Shown here: one piece after another, positions 5,947-63,776 of the stretch | Numbering within the stretch: position 1 is the first letter of the stretch | Layout: each line of letters begins with the position of its first letter | DNA from: Asticcacaulis aquaticus | GTDB lineage: Bacteria > Pseudomonadota > Alphaproteobacteria > Caulobacterales > Caulobacteraceae | Direction of reading: 5' to 3' | Assembly (NCBI RefSeq): GCF_028550415.1 | Contig: NZ_JAQQKX010000003.1 | Location: forward strand, 124,001 to 188,000 | DNA length: 64,000 nucleotides | The notes under the pieces: generated by a model | What the model was told of the DNA's origin: nothing | The model's input: only the letters and a program-made list of their open reading frames with translations | The model's database searches: none | Position numbers and translations under genes: made by a program

Positions 5947-6012
5947 GATATTAACCAATATTTCAGCGGCGCGCGCGACAATCCCGCCTAAGTAGTGGCA
6001 GGAACTATGCGT

Positions 6013-7059
6013 ATGGCTGATATTTTCAGGGATTTCGCGCCGCAGGGCGATCCGGTTAAGGGCCAGTCGGTCCTGATTACCGGCGGCACGGGCAGCTTCG
6101 GCAAGAAGCTGGTCCATACGCTTCTGGAAAAATACGATCCGCGCAAGGTCATTATCCTGTCGCGCGACGAACTCAAGCAGTACGAGATGCGCTGCGAGCT
6201 GGAAGAAACCTTCCCGCCGGAAAAGCTGGCGAAGCTGCGCTTTTTCCTTGGTGATGTGCGCGACCGCCCGCGTTTGGAATTAGCTTTCCGCAGCGTCGAT
6301 ATCGTGGTCCACGCCGCCGCGCTGAAACAGGTGCCTGCGGCGGAATATAACCCGTCCGAATGTATCGCCACCAATGTCAACGGCGCGGAAAACGTCGTCT
6401 GGGCTTGCCTACAGCAAGGGGTGAAGCGCGTCGTGGCCCTGTCCACCGACAAGGCCTGTTCGCCGATCAATCTCTATGGGGCGACCAAGCTGGCCTCGGA
6501 CAAGATTTTCGTCGCCGCCAATAACCTGTCCGGCGATATCGGCACGCGGTTCTGCGTCGTGCGTTACGGCAATGTGGTGGGCTCACGCGGTTCCGTGGTG
6601 CCCTATTTCAAGCGCCTGCTGGCGCAAGGCGCGAAAGACCTGCCGATCACCGACCCGCGCATGACGCGCTTCTGGATTTCGCTGCATCAGGGCGTTGATT
6701 TCGTCCTGTCGTGTCTGGAAACGACGCGCGGCGGGGAAATCTTCGTGCCGAAAATTCCCGCCACGACCGTCAGCGATCTGGCCACCGCCATGGCGCCCGA
6801 CGCGCCGCAGCGGACGATCGGCATCCGTCCGGGGGAAAAGCTGCACGAAATCATGATCTCGGCTGACGATTCCCGCGCCACCTGGGAACTGCCTGACCGT
6901 TATATGATCGAGCCGGAATTCGTCGAATATCCGCGCGAAGGGGCCGACACCGTCGGCGCGCAGAAGGTCGAGGAAGGCTTTGCCTATTCCAGCGACATCA
7001 ATCCGGAACGCCTGGATGTCGACGGCATCAAGGGCATGATGGAAGCCTATTTCGCGTGA
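6013..7059 (+). CDS. pseB: UDP-N-acetylglucosamine 4,6-dehydratase (inverting), PseB
   Basis: First step of pseudaminic acid synthesis: dehydration and C5 epimerisation of UDP-GlcNAc. The Rossmann motif GGTGSFG is close to the start, followed by LSRDELKQ (NADP-binding context) and HAAALKQVP; YGATKLASDK carries the Y-x-x-x-K pair. Length (about 348 residues) fits the PseB/FlmA group rather than the larger membrane-bound dehydratases. Three starts are possible: GTG 5995, ATG 6007 and ATG 6013. I chose 6013 because AGGA at 6000-6003 is then 9 nt away. The last codons overlap the start of pseC by 4 nt, so the two are translationally coupled. Confidence 0.93.
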   Translation: MADIFRDFAPQGDPVKGQSVLITGGTGSFGKKLVHTLLEKYDPRKVIILSRDELKQYEMRCELEETFPPEKLAKLRFFLGDVRDRPRLELAFRSVDIVVHAAALKQVPAAEYNPSECIATNVNGAENVVWACLQQGVKRVVALSTDKACSPINLYGATKLASDKIFVAANNLSGDIGTRFCVVRYGNVVGSRGSVVPYFKRLLAQGAKDLPITDPRMTRFWISLHQGVDFVLSCLETTRGGEIFVPKIPATTVSDLATAMAPDAPQRTIGIRPGEKLHEIMISADDSRATWELPDRYMIEPEFVEYPREGADTVGAQKVEEGFAYSSDINPERLDVDGIKGMMEAYFA

Positions 7060-8243
7060 GCGGGTTTCTGCCCTATGGCCGGCAGTCGATCGACGACAGC
7101 GATATCGCCGCCGTCGTCGAGGCTTTGCATTCCGATTACCTGACGACCGGGCCGATGGTCGAGCGCTTCGAGCGTGAACTGGCGGCCACCGTCGGCGCGA
7201 ACGAGGCGGTGGTGGTGTCGAACGGCACGGCGGCCCTGCATCTGGCGGTTTTGACGCAAAATCTCGGCCCGGAAGACGCCGTCATCGTGCCGTCGATCAC
7301 CTTTGCCGCCTCGGCCAATTGCGTGGCCTATTGCGGGGCTCAGGTGGTGTTTGCCGACGTCGATCCGCTGACGGGCCTGATCACCGATGAGGGCTTCGAT
7401 GCGGCGGTGCGTCTGATCGACAGCCTCGGCCATCGGTTTGCCGGGGTTATTCCGGTCCATTATGCGGGGCGTCCGGTCGATCTGGGCCATATATCCGCCG
7501 TTTGTCGGGCGCGTGTGGCCTTCCTGATCGAAGATGCCTGTCATGCGCTGGGGACGCAAGGCGGGCAAGGCCCGGTCGGGTCGTGCGCGGCCTCCGATAT
7601 GGCCGTCTTCTCCTTCCATCCGGTCAAGACCCTGACGACGGGCGAGGGCGGAGCGATCACCACGAACGACGCCGATCTGGCGCGGCAACTGCGCCTGTTG
7701 CGCAGTCACGGGATCGAGCGCGATCCGGCGCGGTTCGACGGCCTCGGGTATGGCGACAGCGACGATGCCGGGCCGTGGGTCTATGAGATGCAGGCGCTGG
7801 GGTTCAACTACCGTTTGCCGGACCTGAACTGTGCGCTGGGCGTGGCGCAGTTGAAGCGCCTGCCGTGGTTTATCGAGCGTCGTAAGGCGCTGGTTACGGC
7901 CTACGAAAATCTGCTAAAGACGAACCTGTCTGTCTCGTGGCCTTCGGCTGACTCGGGAACCGATCCGGTCTTCCACCTGATGGCCGTGGCAATTGATTTT
8001 GCCGCTGCCGGCAAATCCCGCGCTCAGGTCATGGCTGAGCTTAAATCGCGCGGCATCGGCACACAGGTCCATTATATCCCCGTGCATCGCCAGCCCTACT
8101 GGCAGACGAGGCAACTGGCCGCCCGCGACCTGCCGGGCGCAGATGCGTTTTATCGTTCGACCCTGTCCTTACCGCTCTATCCCGACATGACCGATGCCGA
8201 CCCGGCGCGGGTCGTCGAGGCGTTGAAAGAGGTTTTGTCGTGA
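7056..8243 (+). CDS. pseC: UDP-4-amino-4,6-dideoxy-N-acetyl-beta-L-altrosamine transaminase, PseC
   Basis: This is a PLP enzyme of the DegT/DnrJ/EryC1/StrS family, 395 residues. It puts an amino group at C4 of the PseB product. Motifs include VVSNGTAALHLAV (phosphate binding), EDACHALGT, and FSFHPVKTLTTGEGG with the PLP-lysine (about residue 193); the C-terminal segment HYIPVHRQPYW is usual for PseC. The GTG start overlaps the pseB stop as GTGA. Order and coupling pseB-pseC-pseI support the specific call over other aminosugar transaminases. Confidence 0.93.
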   Translation: MSGFLPYGRQSIDDSDIAAVVEALHSDYLTTGPMVERFERELAATVGANEAVVVSNGTAALHLAVLTQNLGPEDAVIVPSITFAASANCVAYCGAQVVFADVDPLTGLITDEGFDAAVRLIDSLGHRFAGVIPVHYAGRPVDLGHISAVCRARVAFLIEDACHALGTQGGQGPVGSCAASDMAVFSFHPVKTLTTGEGGAITTNDADLARQLRLLRSHGIERDPARFDGLGYGDSDDAGPWVYEMQALGFNYRLPDLNCALGVAQLKRLPWFIERRKALVTAYENLLKTNLSVSWPSADSGTDPVFHLMAVAIDFAAAGKSRAQVMAELKSRGIGTQVHYIPVHRQPYWQTRQLAARDLPGADAFYRSTLSLPLYPDMTDADPARVVEALKEVLS

Positions 8244-9289
8244 CCCCCGAATTCACCATCGCCGGACGCAGGATTGGTGCCGCGCACAGCCCCTACATCA
8301 TCTGCGAATTGTCGGGGAACCATAACGGATCGCTCGACCGGGCGCTGGCGCTGGTCGATGCCGCTGCCGATACGGGCTGCGACGCCATCAAGCTGCAAAC
8401 CTATACCGCCGACACCATCACCCTCAAATCCGATCGCCCGGAGTTTCAGCTGACCGGCGGCATGTGGAAGGGGTATTCGCTTTACGACCTTTATGCCGAG
8501 GCCCACACGCCGTGGGACTGGCATCCGGCGCTGTTCGAGCGGGCAGCCAAACGCGGCGTGACGATGTTTTCCTCGCCGTTCGATGATACTGCCGTCGATT
8601 TCCTCAACGACCTCGGCGCCCCGGCGTTCAAGATTGCCTCGTTCGAACTGGTCGATCTGCCGCTGGTCGCCTATGCGGCCTCGAAGGGTAAGCCGCTGAT
8701 CATGTCGACCGGCATGGCCAATCTGGAAGAGATCCACGCCGCCGTCGAGACGGCCCGCAAATTCGGCACCGGGGAGATTGTGCTGCTCCATTGCGTCAGC
8801 GAATATCCGGCTAATATCCACGACGCCAATGTCCGCGTCGTGCCTGACCTCGGCGCGAAGTTCGGTGTGCCGTCGGGCCTCAGCGACCATACCTTCGGCA
8901 CCGCGGCCTCGGTCGCGTCGGTGGCTTTAGGCGGTTGTGTGATCGAAAAGCACTTCACGCTGGCGCGCGCCGATGGTGGGCCGGATTCGGGATTTTCGCT
9001 GGAACCCGCCGAATTCACCGCCTTGGTCAATGACTGCAAGGACGCCTGGGCAGCGCTGGGCCAGATTCACTACGACACGCTGGGCTCGGAGCGCGGCTCG
9101 AAACAGTTCCGCCGCTCGCTTTATGTGGTTGAGGATATCAAGGCTGGTGAGCCCTTCACCAAGGCCAATGTCAAATCGATCCGTCCGGGGCTGGGCTTGC
9201 CGCCGGTACGTCTGTGGGACGTGTTGGATAAGACGGCGTCGCGCGATATCGCCCGCGGCGAACCGCTCCGCGACGATATGATTGGCTAG
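8240..9289 (+). CDS. pseI: pseudaminic acid synthase, PseI
   Basis: This 349-residue NeuB-family enzyme condenses 2,4-diacetamido-2,4,6-trideoxy-L-altrose with phosphoenolpyruvate. The N-terminal TIM barrel has ICELSGNHNGS, AIKLQTYTADT and EAHTPWDWH, which read as PseI rather than NeuB or LegI. The C-terminal SAF (antifreeze-like) domain is at about 288-349 (GSKQFRRSLYVVEDIKAGE). The GTG start overlaps the pseC stop by 4 nt. It is the last gene of this pse operon; the later steps are encoded about 45 kb downstream. Confidence 0.93.
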   Translation: MTPEFTIAGRRIGAAHSPYIICELSGNHNGSLDRALALVDAAADTGCDAIKLQTYTADTITLKSDRPEFQLTGGMWKGYSLYDLYAEAHTPWDWHPALFERAAKRGVTMFSSPFDDTAVDFLNDLGAPAFKIASFELVDLPLVAYAASKGKPLIMSTGMANLEEIHAAVETARKFGTGEIVLLHCVSEYPANIHDANVRVVPDLGAKFGVPSGLSDHTFGTAASVASVALGGCVIEKHFTLARADGGPDSGFSLEPAEFTALVNDCKDAWAALGQIHYDTLGSERGSKQFRRSLYVVEDIKAGEPFTKANVKSIRPGLGLPPVRLWDVLDKTASRDIARGEPLRDDMIG

Positions 9290-51388: not shown

Positions 51389-52129
51389 ATGACCGTTCTG
51401 ATCAACAATCTGGTCGTCGATACGCCGGAGCATGAGCGGGCGCGCCAGTTGAGCGCCAAGTACGAAGGTTGGAACGCGGAGTCGATCCTGCGTGACGCCA
51501 TCGACCACGAATTTGTGGGACAGATCGCTCTGTCTTCTTCGTTCGGGGCTGATGCCGTGGTGCTGCTGCATCTGGTGGCGCAGATCGACCGCACGACGCC
51601 GGTCATTTTTCTCGACACCGATCGGCACTTTTTTCAGACCCTGCAATATCGCGACGAACTGGTGGCGCAGCTTGGGTTGACCAATCTTATCAATCTGCGC
51701 CCGGCGCTGGAAGATGTGCGGGCGCTGGACCCGAAGAACGTCCTGTTCCAGAGCGATCCGGACGCCTGCTGCGACTTCCGCAAGACGAAGCCGCTGGCAG
51801 CGGTGACGAAGGATTACGCGGCGTGGATTTCAGGCCGCAAACGCGCTCAGGCCGCGACGCGCAAGGCCATGCAGATCGTTGAATTCGACGGACGCAATTT
51901 CAAGATCAATCCTTTGGCCGACTGGACGGCGCAGGACGTGGCCGACTATATCCGCGCCCATGATCTGCCACCGCATCCGCTGGTCGAACAGGGCTATCCG
52001 TCGATCGGTTGCTTCACCTGCACCAAGCCGGTCGAAGAGGGGCAGGACGCCCGTTCAGGTCGCTGGGCCGGTCAGGACAAGACCGAGTGCGGCATCCACC
52101 TCAGCGTCTATGACGGCGGTGGGATTTAA
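51389..52129 (+). CDS. cysH: adenylyl-sulfate (APS/PAPS) reductase CysH, iron-sulfur type
   Basis: The 246-residue enzyme has SSFGADAVVLLHL (PP-loop), FLDTDRHFFQT, ACCDFRKTKPL and GCFTCTKP, and the catalytic ECGIH near the C-terminus. The paired CC and C-x-x-C bind a [4Fe-4S] cluster and mark the APS-reducing type rather than the E. coli PAPS type. It supplies sulfite to CysI. Its 3' end overlaps the convergent MFS gene by 4 nt. Confidence 0.93.
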   Translation: MTVLINNLVVDTPEHERARQLSAKYEGWNAESILRDAIDHEFVGQIALSSSFGADAVVLLHLVAQIDRTTPVIFLDTDRHFFQTLQYRDELVAQLGLTNLINLRPALEDVRALDPKNVLFQSDPDACCDFRKTKPLAAVTKDYAAWISGRKRAQAATRKAMQIVEFDGRNFKINPLADWTAQDVADYIRAHDLPPHPLVEQGYPSIGCFTCTKPVEEGQDARSGRWAGQDKTECGIHLSVYDGGGI

Positions 52130-53385: not shown

Positions 53386-53475
53386 ACGAACTCCGGCTGC
53401 ACACACAAAAGACAGCGCTGTCTCTGTAGCAGGTTGGAACTGGCTCGTAAATTCCGAAACTATGGGTTCAGTAAA

Positions 53476-54165
53476 TCACGATTTGTGACGGGTTGCCGCG
53501 TAAAGCTGTTCGGCGACGGCCCAGTCTTCAGGTGTGTCGATATCGACGACCTCGGTGCGCGGCAGGATGACCGGGGCGGCGTCCGGCGAAAACACGCTTT
53601 CGCCCGCCAATGTCGCCTCGGTCCAGCTCCAGTAAAACTGCGCCGCGTCGTGATAGGCTTCGACCAGATCCTGTGACCGGGTGCTCAGATGTTCGGGTTG
53701 GAACATGGCCACCCCGCCATCAGGTGTCCGGTACAACGCGCGCTGAATGGGGAAAGCATAGGACGTCACTGAAAAGGCAAACCGCTTACCCTGCAAGGCT
53801 TGCCAGCCTTCGATCAGGCGTTCGGCGGTCAGGAACGGCGCGGTGGCATACACGCAGCATAAGGCGTCGGGACGTTCGCCCTGCTCGGTCAGCCAGTTGG
53901 CGGCGTGGATCATGACCGCGCCGGTCCCGGCCTGATCGTTGGACAGTTCCGATGGGCGCACGAAGGGCGTCTCGGCCCCAAACGACCGCGCAACCCCGGC
54001 GATCTCGGCATCGTCGGTCGAGACGATGACGTGGTCGAACAGGTCTGTCTCTATGGCCGCGCGGATCGAATAGGCGATCATCGGCTGGCCAAAAAACGGC
54101 TTGATGTTCTTGCGCGGGATGCGTTTGGAGCCGCCGCGTGCTGGGATGATGCACACGCGCCTCAT
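53476..54165 (-). CDS. pseF: pseudaminic acid cytidylyltransferase PseF
   Basis: The 229-residue CMP-sugar synthetase starts CIIPARGGSKRIPRKNIKPF (CTP loop). It continues with VIVSTDDAEIAGVA, CCVYATAPFL and the C-terminal VVDIDTPEDWAVAEQ with metal-binding Asp residues. ELSNDQAGTGAV is closer to PseF than to NeuA or LegF. It activates pseudaminic acid to CMP-Pse, the donor for flagellin or surface glycosylation. Its ATG overlaps the dioxygenase gene stop by 4 nt. It is the third gene of the ACP-PhyH-pseF unit, which ties these oddly matched genes together. Confidence 0.93.
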   Translation of the reverse strand: MRRVCIIPARGGSKRIPRKNIKPFFGQPMIAYSIRAAIETDLFDHVIVSTDDAEIAGVARSFGAETPFVRPSELSNDQAGTGAVMIHAANWLTEQGERPDALCCVYATAPFLTAERLIEGWQALQGKRFAFSVTSYAFPIQRALYRTPDGGVAMFQPEHLSTRSQDLVEAYHDAAQFYWSWTEATLAGESVFSPDAAPVILPRTEVVDIDTPEDWAVAEQLYAATRHKS

Positions 54166-55091
54166 CGCAGGAACACCTTGTTAGTATAGGGATCGTAGCC
54201 GCTGGGATTGTCCATAATCGGTGCTTTCGGCGAATGCGGCGACGGATAGAGATTATACTGAATAGCCAGCAACAGGCGCGGCTTCGCGACCGGCAGCAGC
54301 CCCTTATGAAAGCCGTAGACGTCTTCCATGAACCACGACCCGGCGGGGCCGGTGATGCGCACGACGTTTTCAGGGCCGAAGGCCTCGCTGATCGTGTCGT
54401 CGGTCTGAGCCTTACCGGTTTCCAATATGCGCGACCGCTGAGACCCCTTCGCATAGACGTGCGGTCCGGCCTCATTGTCGACCTCGGTCAGATAGTAGAA
54501 CAGCTTCACATTGCGCACACAGTCATAGTCGCGATGGAAACGCTGAACGCCCTTGGACACGTCGCGCCCCGGCCACGACCACATACAGCCGATATTGTCG
54601 AGCACGGGTTTGGCACCGAGATAAAGCTCCGCGGCGGCCAGCACGTCGGGCCGGTTCATCAGGTCGAGCATGTGCGGGGCGCGCAGCACCTCTTCCGGCG
54701 TGAAATAGCCGATATTGACCTCATCCGACGGCACGGCGTCCCAGGCGAACGTCCCCAGATGCGGACGATAGGGATCGTGGCACGGCGTGGTTTTGAAGTA
54801 GCTGACCACATCGTTCAGTATGTCTGAAGCAATCGGCGGCTGGACGGCACTGAACCCGTCACGGCGCAGATCCCTGCACAGGGATCGCGCCACCGGCGAC
54901 AGCTTGAGGCCGGGCGTTTTTGGATGGAAGGCGCTGACGATATTGCCCACGCGCCGACGCCCTTTCAGGCCCAGTGCCGGGAGCAGATCGTAGGCGATAT
55001 TGCGCTCGTCGGCGCGGGCGCGGGCAAGGAAGTGCGACCACGACGGCACGCGCGTTTTCAGACGCTCGGCAAAGGTGGTCGTCTCCGGCAC
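54162..55091 (-). CDS. phytanoyl-CoA dioxygenase (PhyH)-family oxygenase
   Basis: The 309-residue Fe(II)/2-oxoglutarate enzyme has the iron triad His186/Asp188 (RFHRDYD) and His262 (YGFHKG), with Arg272 (KPRLLLA) for 2-oxoglutarate. Residues before about 85 are not typical of the family and may be a substrate or carrier-binding part. It starts one base after the ACP stop and overlaps pseF. By position it would hydroxylate an ACP- or CoA-bound acyl chain or the sugar itself; the substrate is not known. Confidence 0.85.
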   Translation of the reverse strand: MPETTTFAERLKTRVPSWSHFLARARADERNIAYDLLPALGLKGRRRVGNIVSAFHPKTPGLKLSPVARSLCRDLRRDGFSAVQPPIASDILNDVVSYFKTTPCHDPYRPHLGTFAWDAVPSDEVNIGYFTPEEVLRAPHMLDLMNRPDVLAAAELYLGAKPVLDNIGCMWSWPGRDVSKGVQRFHRDYDCVRNVKLFYYLTEVDNEAGPHVYAKGSQRSRILETGKAQTDDTISEAFGPENVVRITGPAGSWFMEDVYGFHKGLLPVAKPRLLLAIQYNLYPSPHSPKAPIMDNPSGYDPYTNKVFLR

Positions 55092-55313
55092 TTAAAGCTC
55101 CGCGACGGCGGCCAGATCGTTGAGCGTTACGGCGTCTTTCAGCTTTTCGCCATCGACGATGTGGCCCAGATCGGAATCGACCATGGCGACGAAGGAGATG
55201 ACCGACAAGCTGTCCCAGTTGCCGATGTCGCGCACCTTTTCCTCGCCGGTCAGACCGGCGGGGTCGATTTCGAGGATTTCCGCGACGGCGGCAAAGAAGG
55301 CGGGTTTGTCCAT
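55092..55313 (-). CDS. acyl carrier protein (first of two)
   Basis: The 73-residue acidic protein has IGNWDSLSVISFV, with the phosphopantetheine-attachment serine at residue 35 in a DSL motif. It is unlike housekeeping AcpP, which has DSLD(T/V)VE. Abutting the PhyH gene and upstream of pseF, it is probably a dedicated carrier for the module on the other strand. It starts 111 bp from the divergent KAS III gene. Confidence 0.88.
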   Translation of the reverse strand: MDKPAFFAAVAEILEIDPAGLTGEEKVRDIGNWDSLSVISFVAMVDSDLGHIVDGEKLKDAVTLNDLAAVAEL

Positions 55314-55424
55314 GATGAATTACTCTCTAAGGGCGAAGTTGAGGCTGATGGAATCGCCTTTTCGTCAATATTTGCTTAAAACTTGATAACTAAGGTTAAC
55401 GACGCGAATTTTAGTGGAGTCCAC
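55314..55424. promoter_or_regulatory. divergent promoter region of the acyl/Pse cluster
   Basis: This 111-bp gap separates the minus-strand ACP-PhyH-pseF unit from the plus-strand KAS III-to-pseH operon. It is AT-rich in the middle (TTTGCTTAAAACTTGATAA). Both operons must start here or nearby, so joint control is likely. No specific promoter box is clear. Confidence 0.5.
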
Positions 55425-56486
55425 ATGACCGACGGCGTGTTGCAGGGGGTATCGATCCGCGGCGTGCGCGCCTGCGTGCCCGCGCAAAGCCGGGGCATAG
55501 ACGGCCTGATCCCCGACGAGGCCGAACGCACGCGCCTGACCGGCTCGATCGGCGTGCTGTCGCGCCGTATCGCGCCCGCGGGTGTCCTGACGTCGGACCT
55601 GTGCAGCCGCGCGGCGGAAAACCTTCTCGCTGATCTCGGCTGGGAAAAAGACAGCGTCGACGTGCTGATCCTCGTGACGCAAAATCCCGACTATGTGATT
55701 CCGGCGACGGCCTGCGTGCTGCAAACGCGGCTGGGGCTCGGCAACTGTCTGGCCTTCGATATCAATCTCGGTTGTTCGGGCTATACCTACGGCCTGTGGA
55801 CGGCGGCCAGTTTGCTCAAAACCCTCACCGTCGAAGGTCGTCCGGCGCGCGCGCTTCTGCTCGCCGGCGACGTCAGTTCGGCGCGACTGCTGCCGGATGA
55901 TCGTTCGACCGTGCCTCTGTTTGGCGATGCCGGATCGGCGACCGCGCTGGAAATCGATCCCGAGGCATCCGACATCTACGGCGTCTTCGGCACCGATGGT
56001 TCCGGTGCGCCGCATATCCTGATCGAGGCGGGCGGCACGAAGATGTCGCTCATGCCACCGAAAGAGCCGGTATCGCCCGAAGAGGCGGAAAAACTGTATA
56101 AGGCCGCGCGGCTGCATCTCAACGGTGCCGAGGTCTTCAATTTCACGCTCAAGGCCGTGCCGCCGCTGATGAAGGCCATCCTCGAACGGTCGCAAGCGAC
56201 GGTCGAAGACATCGACTACGTCCTGTTCCATCAGGCCAATGCCTTCATGCTCAACCACCTGCGCAAGAAATCCGGCCTCCCCGAGACCAAGGTGCCAGTG
56301 GCGATGGAAAGCTACGGCAATACGTCCTCGGCCTCGATCCCGCTGACCCTGTGTGCGTCTCTGGCCGATGTGCTGGACGTGCCGAAGCATGTGGTCATGA
56401 TGGGTTTCGGGGTCGGCTGGTCGTGGGGCGCCTTGAAATTGACCCTGCACCCGGCGGTGCGCCCCGCCATTGACGAGTACGCCTGA
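55425..56486 (+). CDS. 3-oxoacyl-ACP synthase III-like ketosynthase (first copy)
   Basis: The 353-residue KAS III/FabH-fold protein has the full catalytic triad: Cys117 (NLGCSGYTYG), His269 (LFHQANAFML) and Asn299 (YGNTSSAS). It should prime chain building by condensing an acyl-CoA with malonyl-ACP, or act as an acyl transferase as some KAS III homologues do. The second copy at 61233-62234 is a paralogue with a 34-nt identical DNA block. I prefer the ATG 55425 after GTGGAGT. It leads the operon. Confidence 0.92.
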   Translation: MTDGVLQGVSIRGVRACVPAQSRGIDGLIPDEAERTRLTGSIGVLSRRIAPAGVLTSDLCSRAAENLLADLGWEKDSVDVLILVTQNPDYVIPATACVLQTRLGLGNCLAFDINLGCSGYTYGLWTAASLLKTLTVEGRPARALLLAGDVSSARLLPDDRSTVPLFGDAGSATALEIDPEASDIYGVFGTDGSGAPHILIEAGGTKMSLMPPKEPVSPEEAEKLYKAARLHLNGAEVFNFTLKAVPPLMKAILERSQATVEDIDYVLFHQANAFMLNHLRKKSGLPETKVPVAMESYGNTSSASIPLTLCASLADVLDVPKHVVMMGFGVGWSWGALKLTLHPAVRPAIDEYA

Positions 56487-56487
56487 C

Positions 56488-57576
56488 ATGCAGATGGGCG
56501 CAGTCACCTCCGATTTCTATCACCGCGACGCCGTCTTCGCGGCGGAGATGGACCGTGTCTTTCGCCCAAGCTGGCTGTGTGTCGGCTTTGCCGAAGATCT
56601 GAAAAATCCGAACGACTTCATCACGACCGACATCGGGCCGCACGGCATCGTCGTGCAGAATTTCAAGGGCGAGCTGCGGGCGTTCAGAAACGTCTGCACG
56701 CATCGCTTTTCGCGGCTCCAGACCGAACCCTGCGGCAATCGTCCCCTGACCTGTCCCTATCACGGCTGGACCTTCGGCAAAGATGGCGCACCCGTTGGCA
56801 TCCCGTTCGAGCGGCAGAGCTTCGGATTTTCCGCGGAAGAAAAGGTGTCCCTGAGCCTCGATACCTACGCGGTCGAGGTGGTTGGTAATTTCGTCTTTGT
56901 ACGGATGGAACCGGGTGACGTGACCCTGCGCGACTATCTGGACACCTATTACGACATGCTGGCGCATCTGGGCGGTCTGTGTACCGACCGGGTCGAGAGC
57001 GAACGTTTCGTATGGGAGGGCAACTGGAAGCTGGCTATGGATAATGCCGCCGAGGCCTATCACGTGCCGCTGGTTCACGCCGACAATTTCAGCCTGATCC
57101 TGCACAACGATCTCAGCATCACGACCGAGGGCGAACATGCGACCTCAACCGGTGAGTTGAAAGAACGTTCGGTGAAATGGTGGGCCAATGCCTGTAGGGC
57201 GCTTAAGATCGAGCGGTCTGATCAGTGGCAGGGCTATATGAGCGCCGTTATTTTCCCGAACATCGTCCTCACCTTTTCCTACGGTGCGTTTCTGACGTTT
57301 CAGACCTTCGATCCGATCGATAAGGATTGTTTCACCATCAAGACGGCGGCGTGGATCGGCACCAATCGCGGTGGCGCAGCGCGCGCCATGATTCACGAAA
57401 ACCTGCGCGAATTTACCGCCAGCGTCCGCGCCGACGACGAGCACATCATCGCTCAGGTCCATAAGGGTACGCGCGATCTGCCGACGCCGCGCCGCGCGGT
57501 TTTAGGCGCGATGGAGGCCGGTCCGGCGCAATTGCAACGCGCCTACGCCGAACGCATGAAGGGCGTACTCGCATGA
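56488..57576 (+). CDS. Rieske non-heme iron oxygenase, alpha subunit type
   Basis: The 362-residue protein has an N-terminal Rieske [2Fe-2S] site, Cys70-x-His72 and Cys89-x2-His92 (CTHRF ... CPYHGW). The catalytic domain carries the iron ligands in DNAAEAYHVPLVHADN. It starts 1 bp after the KAS III stop and overlaps the SDR gene by 4 nt. Members hydroxylate, demethylate or desaturate small molecules and need a reductase, which is not encoded nearby. Inside this module it probably oxidises the acyl group or the final sugar. Confidence 0.9.
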   Translation: MQMGAVTSDFYHRDAVFAAEMDRVFRPSWLCVGFAEDLKNPNDFITTDIGPHGIVVQNFKGELRAFRNVCTHRFSRLQTEPCGNRPLTCPYHGWTFGKDGAPVGIPFERQSFGFSAEEKVSLSLDTYAVEVVGNFVFVRMEPGDVTLRDYLDTYYDMLAHLGGLCTDRVESERFVWEGNWKLAMDNAAEAYHVPLVHADNFSLILHNDLSITTEGEHATSTGELKERSVKWWANACRALKIERSDQWQGYMSAVIFPNIVLTFSYGAFLTFQTFDPIDKDCFTIKTAAWIGTNRGGAARAMIHENLREFTASVRADDEHIIAQVHKGTRDLPTPRRAVLGAMEAGPAQLQRAYAERMKGVLA

Positions 57577-58367
57577 CCGACCTGATCCCGAACACACCAT
57601 CGGCGCGACGCCCTTTCAATCCTCTGTCGCTCGAAGGCCGCACGATCCTCATCACCGGCGCGACCAGCGGCATCGGTCAGGCGACGGCCGTCTATCTGTC
57701 GAAGCTTGGGGCACGGATCATCGCCACGGGCCGTGACGAGACGCGCCTGCAAATGACGCTCGATCAACTGTCCGGCGACAGCCATGTGGGTCGCACCTGC
57801 GACCTCGGTGAAGCCGATAAGATCGCCGTCTGGATGAAGCAACTGTGCGCCGATCATGGCCCGCTCAACGGTCTGGCGCATTGCGCGGGCATCCAGACGA
57901 CGCGCCCGCTTCAGGCGATCAATCTGGCCTATGTGACCGAGATGCTGAACGCCAATCTGGTCACGGCCTTCATGCTGCTTCAGGCGTTCCGCCTCAAGGC
58001 CTGCCACCATCCCAATGCTTCGGCTGTATTAGTTTCCTCCTCCTCGGCCTTGAAATGCGCGCCGGGTAATTCGGTCTATGCGGCGTCGAAAGGCGGCATC
58101 ATTTCCGCGACCAAAGGACTGGGCGTCGAGCTGATCCGCGATGGCATTCGCGTCAATGCGGTGGCTCCAGCTCTGGTCGATACGCCTATGTCGGATCGGT
58201 TCAAATCGGTCCTGTCCGAGGATAATTTCCAGCGTGTCGTCGACATGCATCCCCTCGGTCTCGGGCAGCCCGACGATGTAGCGGGCGCGATTGCCTTCCT
58301 GCTGGCGGATACGTCACGCTGGATCACCGGCTCGGTCATCACGGTCGATGGCGGGTTGCTGGCGTGA
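57573..58367 (+). CDS. short-chain dehydrogenase/reductase, FabG-like (first copy)
   Basis: The 264-residue SDR has the NAD(P) motif TGATSGIG, LAHCAGIQ (NNAG variant), the Ser in VLVSSSSA, and the Y-x-x-x-K in YAASKGG, with a C-terminal TGSVITVDGG. It likely reduces the 3-ketoacyl-ACP made by the KAS III proteins. It is coupled to the genes on both sides by overlaps. Confidence 0.9.
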   Translation: MTDLIPNTPSARRPFNPLSLEGRTILITGATSGIGQATAVYLSKLGARIIATGRDETRLQMTLDQLSGDSHVGRTCDLGEADKIAVWMKQLCADHGPLNGLAHCAGIQTTRPLQAINLAYVTEMLNANLVTAFMLLQAFRLKACHHPNASAVLVSSSSALKCAPGNSVYAASKGGIISATKGLGVELIRDGIRVNAVAPALVDTPMSDRFKSVLSEDNFQRVVDMHPLGLGQPDDVAGAIAFLLADTSRWITGSVITVDGGLLA

Positions 58368-59167
58368 TGCTCGTGGCCGAAAAACCCTCGCGCAAGATCA
58401 GCCTGTCGTACACGGACGGTTCGCAGGGCCGCATCAGCTTCCTTGAAATGGGGCGTGCCGATGCGGCTGCCGTTGTGTTCGTACACGGCTTTGCAGCAGA
58501 CCTTCTGACGTGGCAGTTCTGTCTGGTGCCGATGGCCGCAAACTATCGTGTCATCGCGATTGACCTGCCCGCACATGGCAAGACGCACGATGCCGCGGGC
58601 GATTGCAGCCTCGACTATATGGCCGACTGGCTCAATGCAGCGCTGAACCTACTAGGCGTCGAAGCGGCCCATATTGTCGGTCATTCGATGGGCGGGCGTA
58701 TCGCTCTGGCCCTAGCTGAAGCCCATCTGGAAAAAGTGCTTAGTCTGTCACTGATCGCACCAGCGGGGATCGGCGGACATTTCCATCGCGAGGCCTTCGA
58801 GCGCTATCTGTACGAAGGCAGTGAGGCCGCCGCCCATGCGGCCGCCGTTCAATTGGTCGGCACGGACAATACCGCTTATATTCCGGCCCTGACGTCGTCC
58901 TTGATCGCCGCCGCGACACCGGAACGCCGCGAAACCCTGTTGCGGTTTCTACGTCGCATCGAGTCCGCATCGGGAGATCTCGGCGTCTATGACTGGTCGC
59001 AGCTACACTGTCCGGTGACGGTGCTGTGGGGGGATCAGGACCGCATCATTCCCGTGCCGGACGGCTTGCCCAACCTTCGACGGATCGACGGTGCAGGCCA
59101 TGTGCCGCATATCGAGGCCTCGCGCCGCGTCACGAACCATATTCTGGAGTTTCTCAATGTCCTTTGA
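58367..59167 (+). CDS. alpha/beta hydrolase of the acyl module
   Basis: The 266-residue protein has VFVHGFAADLLTWQF (oxyanion region), the nucleophile elbow VGHSMGGRIA, an acid in LWGDQDRIIPV and the histidine in GAGHVPHIEA. It resembles thioesterase- or MhpC-like hydrolases and may release the acyl group from its carrier, or act as an acyltransferase. The ATG at 58367 overlaps the SDR stop by one base; a GTG at 58364 is an alternative. Confidence 0.87.
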   Translation: MLVAEKPSRKISLSYTDGSQGRISFLEMGRADAAAVVFVHGFAADLLTWQFCLVPMAANYRVIAIDLPAHGKTHDAAGDCSLDYMADWLNAALNLLGVEAAHIVGHSMGGRIALALAEAHLEKVLSLSLIAPAGIGGHFHREAFERYLYEGSEAAAHAAAVQLVGTDNTAYIPALTSSLIAAATPERRETLLRFLRRIESASGDLGVYDWSQLHCPVTVLWGDQDRIIPVPDGLPNLRRIDGAGHVPHIEASRRVTNHILEFLNVL

Positions 59168-59399
59168 CCTTGTCCGTACTGAGTTGACGCAAATCCTGAC
59201 GGACAAATCCGCGCCGGTGGTGGAGATCACGCCGGACACGGTTCTCCTCAACGGACCGCTGGATATCGACAGCCTGGATCTGGCGACGCTGGTGGTGACG
59301 CTGGAAGAAGCGACGGGCTTACAGCCGTTCCGTGAAGGTTTTGTCCTGTTTCATACGGCGGGCGAACTCGGCGCTCTGTTCACGAAGGCTGCCGGATGA
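59157..59399 (+). CDS. acyl carrier protein (second copy)
   Basis: The 80-residue protein has GPLDIDSLDLATLVV, with the carrier serine at residue 39 in the DSLD motif. It overlaps the hydrolase gene by 11 nt and the ligase gene by 4 nt. The sequence is clearly distinct from the minus-strand ACP, so the cluster encodes two different carriers. Confidence 0.9.
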   Translation: MSFDLVRTELTQILTDKSAPVVEITPDTVLLNGPLDIDSLDLATLVVTLEEATGLQPFREGFVLFHTAGELGALFTKAAG

Positions 59400-60505
59400 A
59401 CCTGAGCCTCGACACGCGTTTTGAACTGATCGAAGGCGGACAGGTATTCACTGCCGCCGATCTGCGCACGCGTGCCGAAAATGTCTCGACGGTTGTAACC
59501 GTCACGGGCGATCACCCCGTTGCCGATCTGATTGCAGCTCTGATTGCGATATCGGAAAATGGGACAGACCTGTTCGTTCAGCGTAATTCCGACGCCGAGA
59601 TTCTGGTGCCGGATCAATCGCCGGGTCGTGTGTGGTTGCAGACCTCCGGCACCACGGGCACGCCCAAATGGGCAGGCCATGATCTGTCTAAACTAACGCA
59701 AAAAATCGCTGCCGGATCAGGAGCGAAGGCGCGCTGGTTGCTGACCTATCATCCGTTCAGCTTCGCCGGGGTACAGGTCGTCTTGTCAGCCATGATCGGC
59801 GGTCACACCCTGATCGCGCCGCCGCTAAAGGCTTCGGTGTCTGATATGGCCGGGCTGGCGGAGGCCACGCAACCGACCCATATCAGCGGCACCCCTACCT
59901 TCTGGCGCGCCTTCCTGATGGCCGCGCCGAACCTTGACCTCAAGAGCGTGACACTGGGCGGTGAGGCCACGGACCAGGGCCTGCTCGACGCCCTGCGTGC
60001 GCGATTCCCGAACGCTCATATCCGCCATATTTACGCCACGACCGAGGCCGGGGTGGTGTTTACGGTCAGCGATGGCAAGGCGGGTTTTCCGGCGACGTGG
60101 TTGAACGATCAACTGGCCATAACCGAGCACGGCACTTTGAGCGTCAACGGGCGCGATACCCACGATGCGGTGACCATCGACGGCGACCGTGTCCTCTTCC
60201 GCGGGCGGCTGGATTCGATGGTCAATATCGGCGGCGTGAAAGTCTTCCCCGAAGAGGTCGAGGCCTATCTTCTGACCTGTACGGCTGTGCGCGATGTGCG
60301 GGTCACCGCCCGACCAAACCCCATCACAGGCCATATCCTGACCGCTGAAATCGCGCTTGATCCGTCAGCGGATGAAACCGGGGCGAAGGCGCAAATCAAG
60401 GCCCATATCCAGACCTTGCCGCGCGCCCAGAGACCGGTCAGTCTTTCTTTCGTCGAAGCGATCCCGTACGGCGAAACAGGCAAGAAATCGAGGGCTGCAT
60501 CATGA
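59396..60505 (+). CDS. adenylate-forming acyl ligase (ANL family), short form
   Basis: The 369-residue protein has the P-loop LQTSGTTGTPKW (A3 motif), IYATTEAGVVF (A5), FRGRLDSMVNIGGVKVFPEEVE (A8) and the C-terminal ETGKKSR with the catalytic Lys (A10). It is much shorter than normal (about 500 residues), as most of the N-terminal subdomain is missing. Such short ligases often load an acyl group onto an ACP. The ACP gene just in front is the obvious partner. Confidence 0.88.
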   Translation: MNLSLDTRFELIEGGQVFTAADLRTRAENVSTVVTVTGDHPVADLIAALIAISENGTDLFVQRNSDAEILVPDQSPGRVWLQTSGTTGTPKWAGHDLSKLTQKIAAGSGAKARWLLTYHPFSFAGVQVVLSAMIGGHTLIAPPLKASVSDMAGLAEATQPTHISGTPTFWRAFLMAAPNLDLKSVTLGGEATDQGLLDALRARFPNAHIRHIYATTEAGVVFTVSDGKAGFPATWLNDQLAITEHGTLSVNGRDTHDAVTIDGDRVLFRGRLDSMVNIGGVKVFPEEVEAYLLTCTAVRDVRVTARPNPITGHILTAEIALDPSADETGAKAQIKAHIQTLPRAQRPVSLSFVEAIPYGETGKKSRAAS

Positions 60506-61233
60506 GCCAATGGGTAATCGTCAGCGGCGTCAGCCGGGGCCTGGGCCACGCTATCGCGCTGGATTTGCTGGCGGCCGGATATGACGTAGCGGGCTGTTCG
60601 ACGACCCTGAGTGACGAGGTCAAGGCCCTGCAATCCGAATTTGGTCCGCGCTTTGTCTGGCAGGCGACCGACATGGGCGACAACGACGCCATCGATGCCT
60701 TTGTGGCGGGATCTATTGCGCATTTCGACGCCCCGCCGTGGGGTGTGGTCAATAATGCCGGCATGTCGGTCGAAGGCATTTTGTCCACCCTGCCGTTGGC
60801 CGATATCGAGCGCGTCTTGCAGGTCAATCTGACCGGGGCGATAGCTCTGACGCGTGCCGCCTTGCGTCGGATGATGCGCACGCGCAAGCCGGGGCGGATC
60901 ATCAATATTTCCTCGATCACCGGTTCGCGCGGCTATACGGGCCTCAGCGCCTATGCGGCGTCGAAGGCGGGCATGGACGGCTTCGGTCGCGCCCTGTCGC
61001 GCGAAGTCGGGCGGCTGGGGATCACGGTCAATTCCATCGCACCGGGCTATATGAAGACCGCCTTGTCGGCCGGACTGGATGACAAGCAGCTCGATCAGAT
61101 CGTGCGCCGTACGCCGCTCAACCGGCTGTGCGAGCTGAGCGACATCACGCCTTTGGTGCGTTTCCTGTTGTCGGATGAGGCGGCGTTCATTACCGGGCAA
61201 ACCCTCACCGTGGACGGGGGGCTGACCAGCTGA
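60502..61233 (+). CDS. short-chain dehydrogenase/reductase, FabG-like (second copy)
   Basis: The 243-residue SDR has VSGVSRGLGHAIA, VVNNAGMSVEG, INISSITGSRG, Y-x-x-x-K in YAASKAGMD and a C-terminal TGQTLTVDGG, very close to FabG. It overlaps the ligase by 4 nt and the next KAS III gene by one base (TGATG). Confidence 0.92.
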   Translation: MSQWVIVSGVSRGLGHAIALDLLAAGYDVAGCSTTLSDEVKALQSEFGPRFVWQATDMGDNDAIDAFVAGSIAHFDAPPWGVVNNAGMSVEGILSTLPLADIERVLQVNLTGAIALTRAALRRMMRTRKPGRIINISSITGSRGYTGLSAYAASKAGMDGFGRALSREVGRLGITVNSIAPGYMKTALSAGLDDKQLDQIVRRTPLNRLCELSDITPLVRFLLSDEAAFITGQTLTVDGGLTS

Positions 61234-62234
61234 TGACGGCCTTTGCCATGACAGCTCCGGTGTTGCGCGGCGTGGTCACAGCCATGCCCGAAGCCGTGTC
61301 CGAAAATGCCGATCTGGCGCCGCAGTTCGGTAGCGAGGTCATGGCCAAGATCATCGCGGCCACCGGCATCGAACGCCGCCCGGTCTCCACCGTTCACACC
61401 GTGTCGGAACTGGCCGTCGTGGCGGCTGAAACACTGATCGAGGCGCTGGAGTGGGCGCGTGACTCGATTGATCTGCTGGTCGTCGTGACCCAGACGCCGG
61501 ACTATCCTCTGCCGTCCACGGCCTGCGTCATTCAGAACAAGCTCGGTCTGGGGGCGCAGGTGGCGGCCTTCGATCTGGGGCTTGGCTGTTCGGGTTACGT
61601 GTACGGATTGTCGGTCATCAGCGCCATGATGCAGGCCGGAAACATCCGTCGCGCCCTGCTGGTGACCGGGGACATGACCTCGCGCATGATCTCCGACGAT
61701 AACCGCGCGCTGGCCCCTTTGTTTGGGGATGCGGTGTCGGTGACGGCTTTGGAGACAGGCCAAGCGACCGCAGCTTTCGATCTTGGCTCTGATGGTTCCG
61801 GCGCACCCTATCTGATCTCGAAGACCGGCGGTCTGGCCGAACCGGGTACGCCGGAACTGTTTATGGACGGCACGCAGGTCATGGCCTTTTCGCTCCGTCA
61901 GGTCGCGCCGTCGATTGCGCGCGCTTTGACGACGGCGGGCAAGGACATTGCCGATATCGACCACGTTATCCTGCATCAGGCCAATGCCCTGATGCTGCGG
62001 ACTCTGGGTCATAAGATCAAGGCGCGCGACGATCAGATGGTCTATGCCGTGCGCGACTACGGCAATACGTCCTCGGCCTCGATCCCGCTGGCCCTGTGCG
62101 ACTATCTGCCGAAGCAACCACCCAGGGATCGCCTTGAATTGCTGCTGTGCGGGTTCGGGGTAGGCTGGTCGTGGTCGACCGCTGTGTGGTCGACGCCCGC
62201 GCCCGCCATCGCTGCCATCGTACAGGTGCCCTGA
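61233..62234 (+). CDS. 3-oxoacyl-ACP synthase III-like ketosynthase (second copy)
   Basis: This 333-residue paralogue of the 55425 gene has Cys119 (LGLGCSGYVYG), His248 (LHQANALML) and Asn278 (YGNTSSAS) intact. Both copies end in a FGVGWSW-type motif. Its last base is the first base of the pseG start codon, so acyl genes and sugar genes are translated as one unit. Confidence 0.92.
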   Translation: MTAFAMTAPVLRGVVTAMPEAVSENADLAPQFGSEVMAKIIAATGIERRPVSTVHTVSELAVVAAETLIEALEWARDSIDLLVVVTQTPDYPLPSTACVIQNKLGLGAQVAAFDLGLGCSGYVYGLSVISAMMQAGNIRRALLVTGDMTSRMISDDNRALAPLFGDAVSVTALETGQATAAFDLGSDGSGAPYLISKTGGLAEPGTPELFMDGTQVMAFSLRQVAPSIARALTTAGKDIADIDHVILHQANALMLRTLGHKIKARDDQMVYAVRDYGNTSSASIPLALCDYLPKQPPRDRLELLLCGFGVGWSWSTAVWSTPAPAIAAIVQVP

Positions 62235-63223
62235 TGCGGATGTGGGTGCGCACCGAAGCCTCGACGCGGATCGGCCTGGGGCACTTCATGCGCTGTTTCG
62301 CTATCGCCGAAGAGGCTCGCCACCACGAAATCGAGGTCGTGTTTCTGCTCAACGAAGCGCCGGACGCCGCCATCGCGCGCCTGCAATCCATCGGTGCGAA
62401 ATGGCGCTGGATGGAGACGCGGATCGGCTCACCCGAAAACGCTGCGGCCATCAAAACCGTGGTCCCGAAAGGCGATGTCCTGCTGCTCGATTCCTATGCG
62501 TTCGACGCCGATAGCTATGATCGTCTGTCGGCGGACTATTATCTGGCCGTGATGGATGATCTGGCCGAAGTTTGCCCCCTTAAAGCACACCTGATCGTCA
62601 ATGCCGCCGGATCGGCGGTCGATCTGCCCTATGCCGAGATCGCGCCCGACGCCACCCTGTGCCTCGGCCCTGACTACGCGCAAATCCGCCGCGAGTTCCG
62701 TCGTCATTACCCAGCTCCGCGCCGCCCGCACATCTGCATCATGTTCGGCGGGTCCGATCCCAAAGGTCTGACCGCCATCTGTGCCGAAGCCTTGCTGGAG
62801 TCCGCCCCGGCGATGGATATTCGCCTGATCGTCGGTCCTGCCAATGCCAATGTCGATGCCTTGCGCCAGCTCTGTGCGAAGCGAGCGGGGCTAAAGCTCT
62901 ACCTGTCGCCCGACAATGTCGCTGAAGTCCTGACCGGTGCCGAACTGGTCGTCACCGCGGCGGGGGGCAGCGTCGGCGAAATCGCCGCCATGAACCTGGC
63001 GGCTCTGGTCATGGTCGTGGTCGATAATCAGGTGGCCGCGCTCAAATCGTCGCCCTTTCCGGTCCTCGACGCCCGCAAGGGCTGGCCCACCGACTTCGCC
63101 CTGACCATCGAGGCCCTGATGGGCGATGCCGACATGCGGCGTGAGATCGCCGCCCGCGCGCACGGGCTGATCGACGGCAAAGGCTGCGAACGCATCATAA
63201 AGGCGATCCGATCCCATGGCTGA
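62234..63223 (+). CDS. pseG: UDP-2,4-diacetamido-2,4,6-trideoxy-beta-L-altropyranose hydrolase PseG
   Basis: The 329-residue GT-B-fold hydrolase starts MWVRTEASTRIGLGHFMRC, with the loop and catalytic His typical of PseG. It continues with DVLLLDSYAFDADSY, ICIMFGGSDPKGLT and TAAGGSVGEIAAMN. It removes UDP to give the free sugar used by PseI. The start overlaps the KAS III stop, and the end overlaps pseH by 8 nt. Confidence 0.94.
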   Translation: MRMWVRTEASTRIGLGHFMRCFAIAEEARHHEIEVVFLLNEAPDAAIARLQSIGAKWRWMETRIGSPENAAAIKTVVPKGDVLLLDSYAFDADSYDRLSADYYLAVMDDLAEVCPLKAHLIVNAAGSAVDLPYAEIAPDATLCLGPDYAQIRREFRRHYPAPRRPHICIMFGGSDPKGLTAICAEALLESAPAMDIRLIVGPANANVDALRQLCAKRAGLKLYLSPDNVAEVLTGAELVVTAAGGSVGEIAAMNLAALVMVVVDNQVAALKSSPFPVLDARKGWPTDFALTIEALMGDADMRREIAARAHGLIDGKGCERIIKAIRSHG

Positions 63224-63776
63224 GTTCCTCTCCTACCGCCCGATCACGCCCGACGATGCGATGCTCCTGCTCGATTGGCGAACAGCCCCGCATATCACGC
63301 GCTATATGCTGACCGACGTGCCCTACGATATCGAGCGCCAGAAGGCCTGGATCGAGCGATCCAATGCCCGCGACGACTACCATCACCGCATCATCCAGAT
63401 TCACGGCAAGGATGTCGGCTTCTGTTCTCTGACCGTCACCGATAAGGCCAACCAGATCGGCGAGGTCGGGGTCTATATCGGCGACCCGGAGGTGCCCGTT
63501 GCCCTATCGATGTACAATTTCCTCGGCACGCTGAACCATGCCTTTTTTACGCTGGGTCTGCATAAGCTGGTCAATCACGTCGTCGACTGGAACGATCGGG
63601 TGATCCGTACCCAGGCCTTTATCGGTTATCGTCACGTCGGTGTTCTGAAGAACCATGCTTTGAAAGACGGTGTGCGGCATGATTTGCATATCTTCGAGCA
63701 GGAAGCGTCTGAATGGGCCGCCTTCCGTAAAAAGTTTCGCGACACCCGTGATTGGGATGGGAACGAGACTATATAA
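63216..63776 (+). CDS. pseH: UDP-4-amino-sugar N-acetyltransferase PseH (GNAT)
   Basis: The 186-residue GNAT protein has YRPITPDDAMLLLDWRTAPHITRYM at the N-terminus and GEVGVYIGDP, NHAFFTLGLHKLVNHV and DGVRHDLHIFE further on, the PseH/FlmH pattern. It normally acetylates the 4-amino group made by PseC. In this operon, next to an acyl-building module, it might accept a different acyl donor. This is inference. Confidence 0.92.
   Translation: MAEFLSYRPITPDDAMLLLDWRTAPHITRYMLTDVPYDIERQKAWIERSNARDDYHHRIIQIHGKDVGFCSLTVTDKANQIGEVGVYIGDPEVPVALSMYNFLGTLNHAFFTLGLHKLVNHVVDWNDRVIRTQAFIGYRHVGVLKNHALKDGVRHDLHIFEQEASEWAAFRKKFRDTRDWDGNETI

Follow-up and report, generated by a model that had tools for sequence, protein, structure and literature searches.

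An acyl assembly line and an altered acyltransferase in a pseudaminic acid operon of Asticcacaulis suggest that a hydroxylated acid replaces acetate on the sugar

RESULTS AND DISCUSSION

The 64,000-nucleotide stretch of Asticcacaulis aquaticus DNA analyzed here (the window; contig NZ_JAQQKX010000003.1, positions 124,001 to 188,000) encodes the synthesis of pseudaminic acid (Pse) and, between pseF and pseG-pseH, a module of ketosynthase, acyl carrier protein (ACP), reductase and oxygenase genes. An acyl assembly line in a pse operon together with an altered acyltransferase suggests that Pse receives a hydroxylated acid here rather than acetate. On balance, we consider it somewhat probable that the module serves the third Pse step as an ACP-dependent source of the acyl donor, providing a custom hydroxyacyl group that the altered PseH (PseH') transfers and that later forms the N-7 substituent. 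An earlier note on this DNA, made from the sequence alone, had proposed an unusual hydroxylated N- or O-acyl group on Pse; this would fit our observations, which lead us to narrow the proposed position to N-7. For the question of how some bacteria may add non-acetyl hydroxyacyl groups to nonulosonic acids, the locus offers an answer at the level of genes that can be tested by mass spectrometry.

Organization of the pse locus

The locus consists of two divergent, tightly joined operons, with genes named from Pfam and NCBIfam profiles and NCBIfam equivalog cut-offs applied to the Pse proteins. The minus strand carries pseF (53476..54165), encoding CMP-pseudaminic acid cytidylyltransferase (TIGR03584, 316.5 bits against a cut-off of 205.7), a gene for a PhyH-like Fe(II)/2-oxoglutarate oxygenase (54162..55091; weak Pfam PhyH match and an HxD..H..R motif), and ACP1 (55092..55313; PF00550, E value 2.3e-6, with a DSL serine). 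After a 111-nt divergent intergenic region (55314..55424), read directly from the sequence and presumed to hold the promoters, the plus strand encodes the KAS III-type ketosynthase KS1 (55425..56486; PF08541/PF08545), an alpha-type Rieske non-haem iron oxygenase (56488..57576; PF00355 and PF00848), the FabG-like reductase SDR1 (57573..58367; PF13561), an alpha/beta hydrolase (ABH; 58364..59167; PF00561), a second carrier protein, ACP2 (59157..59399; PF00550, E value 5.7e-4 and 20.5 bits, slightly below the cut-off of 20.8), a short acyl-AMP ligase, ANL (59396..60505; PF00501 and PF13193), a second FabG-like reductase, SDR2 (60502..61233; PF13561), a second KAS III-type ketosynthase, KS2 (61233..62234; PF08541/PF08545), the UDP-sugar hydrolase gene pseG (62234..63223; TIGR03590, 175 bits against a cut-off of 153.55), and pseH' (63216..63776). 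The PhyH-like oxygenase, ABH, ACP2, ANL, SDR2 and KS2 are optional parts of the module. Every gene that the earlier note listed between pseF and pseG-pseH is present by profile, the PhyH call depending on a weak profile, a motif and an annotated relative.

The nine plus-strand junctions from KS1 to pseH' measure +1, -4, -4, -11, -4, -4, -1, -1 and -8 nt (positive for a gap, negative for an overlap), and on the minus strand ACP1 and PhyH are separated by 0 nt while PhyH and pseF overlap by 4 nt, distances that depend on the start codons we picked. These junctions agree with the overlapping or 1-nt-spaced plus-strand genes running into pseG-pseH, and with the joined ACP-PhyH-pseF genes, that had been described before. 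The other pse genes lie elsewhere in the window, at a distance of 44 kb from pseF, in an operon of their own (5995-9289, plus strand) comprising pseB (5995..7059; 52% match to a Sphingobium sp. TKS gene annotated as pseB), pseC (7056..8243; 43% match to the gene annotated pseC in the same strain) and pseI (8240..9289; TIGR03586, 500.6 bits against a cut-off of 340.25). PseF, PseG and PseI thus pass their equivalog cut-offs, and PseB and PseC are present by match to annotated genes.

KAS III, ACP and 3-oxoacyl-ACP reductase genes here adjoin amino-sugar genes, as in N-acyl modules of the vio and wfp type (see below). Profile scans of the window module found no PglD-like acyltransferase of the WfpG type, and a GNAT enzyme is encoded there instead. 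The candidate explanation of a recent foreign insert is ruled out by the lack of a step in G+C content between module and flanks and by the presence of the module in 18 of 25 genomes of the genus. We also note that a gene for an MFS transporter (52126-53406) adjoins pseF and is shared with the close relative G318, with no match in the other module-bearing stretches read.

PseH' forms a clade apart from canonical PseH

The product of pseH' retains a GNAT profile match (PF13302) and reaches 61.7 bits against the PseH model, below its equivalog cut-off (TIGR03585, 93.1 bits). Among 119 Caulobacteraceae genomes, 79 have a match to this model and 65 a match above the cut-off, with scores graded down from 211 bits. 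A tree of 65 rows was built from 32 PseH' and 33 canonical sequences, the latter obtained by hidden Markov model-guided extraction from the 30 top-scoring loci together with two plasmid records and a few stretches of 20 kb (five canonical rows, four copies and one fragment, were dropped). The two sets are split by a 100/100 branch, and PseH' is still separate at 100/100 in a second tree to which 20 lower-scoring PseH-like proteins (50-141 bits) were added as a further control, both results carrying a long-branch warning. Assignment of the window gene as a canonical PseH is therefore ruled out, given its score below the cut-off and its place in the other clade.

The GNAT loop motif R/QxxGxG/A is present at the aligned position in 0/32 PseH' sequences, which have a one-residue deletion there. 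Canonical sequences read like VRGLGVG at this loop, with the motif in 31/33 (the exceptions are those of S. meliloti Rm41 and Sphingobium TKS), and it is found in 15 of the 20 lower-scoring proteins, or in 46/53 of all non-PseH' rows together. In 9 of 23 PseH' rows the motif does turn up, though at positions outside the aligned loop. Three PseH-like proteins with a shortened loop (G096, G255 and G131, at loci L241, L242 and L243; 114-118 bits) have no acyl-module genes within 1.5 kb and make up a separate case.

Gene neighborhoods divide along the same line. Of 25 PseH' loci (18 from Asticcacaulis and 7 found by profile), 24 have relatives of the acyl-module genes no more than 1.5 kb away (the single miss, G361, is close to a contig end), compared with 0/30 canonical loci and 0/20 lower-scoring PseH-like loci. 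Since this PseH-like clade goes with ACP genes and stands apart from the ordinary acetyltransferases, predictions of Pse5Ac7Ac from pse genes alone could fail for such genomes.

Distribution and variants within Asticcacaulis

Both pseI (24 matches above the cut-off) and pseF (65-100% match) are found in all 25 Asticcacaulis genomes searched, the window genome (G000) included, so their presence alone says little, and it is the position of the module and the type of PseH that carry the argument for a joint pathway. An orthologue-level KS2 is encoded in 14 genomes, again counting the window genome, and KS1 without KS2 in 4 more, which gives 18 of 25 with the module; G372, with only a 36% match and no module around it, lies outside the 18. 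(G371 and G373 share their gene order with A. solisilvae and Asticcacaulis sp. AC466 contigs, and each pair enters the count once.) In all 18 carriers the module sits in the slot between pseF and pseG-pseH, contiguously in 17 and split across two contigs in G361, and is accompanied by the special PseH type. This supports the earlier suggestion that acyl and Pse synthesis form one pathway, and the genus genomes searched hold no case of acyl genes conserved without pse genes.

The variants of the module are nested. Three genomes have the core ACP1-KS1-Rieske-SDR1 only (G327, G375 and, on the ground that it lacks KS2, G361, whose contigs end at SDR1 and pseG), one adds the hydrolase (G376), and five add the hydrolase and KS2 (G348, G355, G339, G374 and G344). 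Two carry the core with hydrolase-ACP2-SDR2-KS2 (G260 and G367), with no ANL found in these modules, and seven carry this set plus ANL (G000, G318, G364, G370, G378, G371 and G373). From this nesting we take the core with PseH' to be the constant part and the KS2 arm to be an add-on. The PhyH-like gene is found in 14/25 genomes, in 14 of the 18 with the module versus none of the 7 without it (Fisher 0.0007, which is a guide only, since relatives are not independent). One module, that of G370, holds two tandem Rieske genes (L182:10855-13050), 44-45% identical to the window gene, which suggests two oxidation steps or a duplication. A Rieske search of 299 genomes of the order returned, among the matches listed, one orthologue-level match beyond the window's own (450 bits), with the next at 121 bits.

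Genomes of the genus without the module fill the same interval in other ways. Canonical PseH lies between pseF and pseG in G353 and G358. In G352, G372 and G350 the slot holds open reading frames (ORFs) of an S-adenosylmethionine methyltransferase, a flavin oxidoreductase and a WbqC-family protein (Pfam-tested in G352), and G334 has an ORF for the flavoenzyme in the corresponding position, where other frames were picked for the rest of the cassette. No PseH was seen in the slot with this cassette (L203:7000-9571 in G352, also L204 and L207, partly L205), which may be another route to finish the amino group of the sugar. In G377, pseF and pseG stand back to back with no acyltransferase between them (L206:4649-6365), and G353 has an unclassified 305-aa ORF between pseG and its canonical PseH (L156:7909-8826). 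We tentatively propose, with less than even confidence, that the interval between pseF and pseG acts as a slot for exchangeable N-7 acylation genes and may hold canonical PseH (for acetyl), PseH' with an ACP line and Rieske oxygenase (for a custom hydroxyacyl group), the methyltransferase-flavoenzyme-WbqC cassette or nothing, that PseH' is acyl-ACP dependent, that the Rieske oxygenase hydroxylates an ACP- or sugar-bound chain, and that a C4 or C6 chain length could be read from the content of the module.

Recurrence beyond the genus and next to flagellin

A search independent of the acyl genes used the PseH' profile (A7) against 385 genomes from the class and 398 from the phylum. The profile matched 8 genomes of the class and 2 of the phylum, each count including the window's own, which leaves 8 new genomes (7 + 1), and acyl-module genes lie within ~10 kb of PseH' in all 8 (G552, G429, G647, G438, G653, G730, G524 and G949). 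A Rieske relative is present in 6/8 and core pse genes are present in the stretch in 5/8. The profile contains Azospirillum and Niveispirillum rows, so G552, G647 and G429, which are close to these in the tree, are less independent recoveries. The genome from outside the class, G949, encodes pseB, pseC, pseG, pseI, KS1, KS2, two SDR1-type genes, SDR2, ACP1, ACP2, ANL, Rieske and PseH' within 16 kb. The acyl set with pse genes recurs in Azospirillum, Niveispirillum, other Alphaproteobacteria and one genome of another class.

On plasmid p3 of Azospirillum brasilense Sp7 the genes follow in the order pseG, an SDR gene, KS1 (51%), Rieske (39%), SDR1 (47%), PseH' (38%), genes for a nucleotidyltransferase, a TPR protein and a glycosyltransferase, then pseI (60%), a cytidylyltransferase-type gene, ACP1 (52%), hydrolase (38%), ACP2 (54%), ANL (44%), SDR2 (56%), KS2 (48%) and finally flagellin. 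Strain Sp7, whose acyl set adjoins the flagellin gene, offers a tractable model. In Azospirillum sp. B510, a KS1/PseH'/Rieske/PhyH arm and a pseI/ACP1/ACP2/ANL/SDR2/KS2 arm lie on two plasmids. The window genome encodes a 31% relative of the Sp7 TPR protein beside FlbT, FlaF and a flagellin gene; two further ORFs near FlbT and FlaF look flagellin-like. Both TPR proteins show mainly TPR repeats in Pfam, with a hint of a glycosyltransferase domain (Glyco_transf_9, below the cut-off) in the Sp7 protein, so we infer rather than observe the resemblance to FlmG.

Catalytic residues of the module enzymes

We compared the window genes with their orthologue-level relatives (for KS2 and SDR2, 14 and 9 relatives, A. 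brasilense included and the window gene not; best matches in genomes lacking these two genes are paralogues and were excluded) at residues which we take to be catalytic in each family. For KS1, KS2, ACP1, ACP2, SDR1, SDR2, the Rieske oxygenase and the PhyH-like protein, the window gene and every such relative retain them. KS1 keeps Cys-His-Asn, ACP1 the DSL serine and SDR1 Ser-Tyr-Lys in 18/18 relatives each, ACP2 keeps its serine in 9/9, and the Rieske protein has the CxH..CxxH cluster and two His ligands of the mononuclear iron in 18/18 and in the window gene. For ABH, the aligned Ser and His are found in 15/15 relatives. The PhyH-like protein does not reach the Pfam PhyH cut-off (12.1 bits against 22; E value 0.24), and H-x-D...H...R is conserved in 13/13 of its relatives, residues that, going by the family, we presume to be iron/2-oxoglutarate ligands, no structure match having been found. 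A 33% relative (H8) is annotated as phytanoyl-CoA dioxygenase family, and relatives of 42-50% sit beside module genes in other genomes.

A proposed route to an acylated Pse

We hypothesize that synthesis starts with the condensation, by KS1, of malonyl-ACP1 and a short acyl-CoA (probably acetyl-CoA), after which SDR1 reduces the product to a 3-hydroxyacyl-ACP, probably 3-hydroxybutyryl-ACP. Hydroxyls would be added by the Rieske oxygenase, and by the PhyH-like enzyme where present; the presence of oxygenases fits further hydroxylation of the chain. In the full version, KS2, ACP2 and SDR2 would carry out a second round of extension and reduction to give a dihydroxyhexanoyl-type chain. By analogy with the vio and wfp precedents described below, we expect a C4 3-hydroxyacyl-ACP from the core arm and a further round from the KS2 arm. 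At a guess, ANL might load or reload an acid onto an ACP and the hydrolase might release or proofread acyl groups. PseH' would then move the acyl group from ACP, and not acetyl from CoA, onto the 4-amino group of the PseC product. With the altered PseH' as the natural transferase, the group placed on the 4-amino position of the UDP-sugar would, after PseG, PseI and PseF, be the N-7 substituent of CMP-Pse. The FlmG-like TPR protein would finally transfer the modified Pse to flagellin. To our knowledge, PseH' would be the first acyl-ACP-dependent nonulosonic acid N-acyltransferase.

Alternative explanations

Several observations weigh against this route. Five of the 20 other PseH-like proteins likewise have a loop that is changed or shortened, without a module nearby, and with the Rm41 and TKS sequences this means that loop loss alone is no marker of an ACP donor. 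In addition, the module-bearing genomes G327, G364 and G361 also encode a canonical PseH (131-165 bits) at another site, which in the stretches read is not near pseF or pseG, so PseH' is no simple replacement there. Together these points leave us somewhat less confident, and they speak for a scheme in which PseH', retaining its GNAT profile match, acetylates from acetyl-CoA and an unrecognized enzyme later adds the acyl chain to a hydroxyl of Pse or CMP-Pse. We regard such late acylation as rather unlikely, since PseH' co-occurs with the module and forms its own clade, and the two genomes with canonical PseH in the slot, G353 and G358, both lack the module.

The KS2 arm poses a separate difficulty. 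Five genomes of the genus have KS2 without ACP2 and SDR2, which the elongation model must account for and which make elongation by this arm the weakest step of the route. The arm is also separable, being not found in 3/18 and partial in 8/18 module genomes and lying on another replicon than the KS1 arm in Azospirillum sp. B510. It might instead make a second acyl group for O-4/O-8 or N-5, with the hydrolase or KS2 acting as acyltransferase, to give a Pse with two unusual acyl groups. Such a group would have a parallel in C. jejuni, where di-O-methylglyceroyl replaces the N-5 acetyl (PMC3068675). The module has only one recognizable N-acyltransferase gene, however, and for F. psychrophilum a set of two synthases with one ACP and one reductase is already predicted to be enough to make one 3,5-dihydroxyhexanoyl group (PMC6519341); we therefore think two acyl groups unlikely.

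Two enzymatic details also count against the proposed route: the aligned Asp of ABH is present in 11/15 relatives and absent in 4/15, and the search for a Rieske reductase or ferredoxin, which covered the genes of the module, returned none. A further consideration is linkage. Beyond the genus, the association of acyl and pse genes noted earlier holds at 5/8 PseH' loci, but those of G429, G438 and G524 have no pse gene in the stretch read (contig ends are nearby in G438 and G524), and neither do the related loci L051 and L049 discussed below. Polyketide and lipid loci, too, contain KAS III, ANL and SDR genes, and the acyl genes could make an unrelated small molecule or lipid and lie next to pse by operon hitch-hiking. 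The constant slot in 18/18 carriers within the genus, the pse linkage in 5/8 genomes elsewhere, and the linkage of related sets to amino-sugar N-acyltransferases of two types make this very unlikely.

With regard to the acceptor, the polar flagellin glycan of strain Sp7 is described as a Rha/Fuc/Gal/GlcNAc repeat, with no nonulosonic acid named in the available text (PMC3958885, PMC8100600). Against the proposed route as a whole, and not on the acceptor alone, in C. crescentus loss of flmH, even with that of two paralogues, does not phenocopy disruption of neuB, flmA, flmB or flmG (PMC7591256). The arm-A plasmids of Azospirillum place the genes among polysaccharide-type genes, and the one GT41 gene found in the window genome encodes an OGT-like glycosyltransferase (TPR-GT41) and lies immediately downstream of the gene for a Ser/Thr-rich ALTTAQ-repeat protein of 2500 residues (L215:8477-17954, G000:C21), a possible enzyme-substrate pair. 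The modified sugar could accordingly be destined for a surface polysaccharide or another protein, such as this repeat protein, and not for flagellin. Given the A. brasilense gene order linked to flagellin and the TPR protein beside FlbT, FlaF and flagellin in the window genome, we consider a non-flagellin acceptor doubtful, and favor flagellin.

Comparison with known and related systems

One of the closest precedents is the viosamine island of P. syringae (vioA, vioM, vioT, vioS, vioB, vioR and acp), in which vioS-vioB-vioR-acp lead to 3-hydroxybutyryl-viosamine on flagellin and the modified viosamine is lost in a vioR deletion, as determined by mass spectrometry (PMC3927599). As in Asticcacaulis, a KAS III enzyme, an ACP, a 3-oxoacyl-ACP reductase and an N-acyltransferase are combined, there for a 3-hydroxybutyryl amide on a flagellin amino sugar. 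The vio system acts on dTDP-viosamine with VioB and one ketosynthase, and the seven tabulated genes include no Rieske, PhyH or ANL gene (PMC3927599), whereas the Asticcacaulis locus combines UDP-/CMP-Pse, a GNAT enzyme, two ketosynthases, two ACPs and oxygenases.

A second precedent is found in F. psychrophilum O-antigen synthesis, where wfpC/D/E/F/G are the predicted makers of a 3,5-dihydroxyhexanoyl group shown by nuclear magnetic resonance, and strains without these genes carry another pglD homologue (PMC6519341). By description, two ketosynthases, an ACP, a reductase and an N-acyltransferase are again combined, in that case for the 4-amino group of UDP-Qui2NAc4N. The wfp system differs in its PglD-like acyltransferase, its bacillosamine substrate and its O-antigen product, with no oxygenase described in the text available (PMC6519341).

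Related acyl modules are also encoded in Undibacterium squillarum (L051:3059-11008) and in a Vampirovibrionales metagenome-assembled genome (L049:1822-7674), where a DegT aminotransferase, ketosynthase, ACP, SDR, PglD-like acyltransferase and Rieske oxygenase lie in a row. These resemble the Asticcacaulis module in placing KS1, ACP1, SDR1 and Rieske relatives next to amino-sugar enzymes, and differ in having a PglD-like hexapeptide acyltransferase in place of the GNAT. No pse gene was found in these stretches apart from DegT (24% to pseC). The acyl part is thus not confined to Pse, and the two loci probably represent a related acyl module for another amino sugar. A TPR-GT41 glycosyltransferase is encoded upstream of the Undibacterium set and a phosphopantetheinyl transferase in the Vampirovibrionales genome. 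Beyond L039-L051, no KS/ACP/SDR set beside a Rieske gene stood out among the 80 best Rieske loci scanned.

The literature searched, outside which lay all preprints and most subscription papers, yielded no article containing "Rieske," "pseudaminic" and "acyl carrier" together and, among the matches listed, no report of a Pse pathway, two KAS III enzymes, a Rieske oxygenase and a loop-less GNAT as a recurrent unit. "Rieske" did not occur among the matches listed for pseudaminic acid and flagellin glycosylation, and "Asticcacaulis" with "pseudaminic" returned only a Campylobacter phage paper.

For the Pse pathway itself, C. crescentus flmA/B/H/D/neuB/flmC and FlmG represent the same six-step pathway feeding flagellin glycosylation; its PseH, FlmH, is described as an acetyltransferase, and "acyl" is absent as a word start from the text available (PMC7591256). 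C. jejuni flagellin with Pse5(2,3-di-O-methylglyceroyl)7Ac likewise bears a non-acetyl acyl group on flagellar Pse, but that group is at N-5 and requires the aminopeptidase-like Cj1295, and "acyl carrier" is absent from the text available (PMC3068675). Each ingredient of the Asticcacaulis module is of a known kind, and it is their combination that appears to be new.

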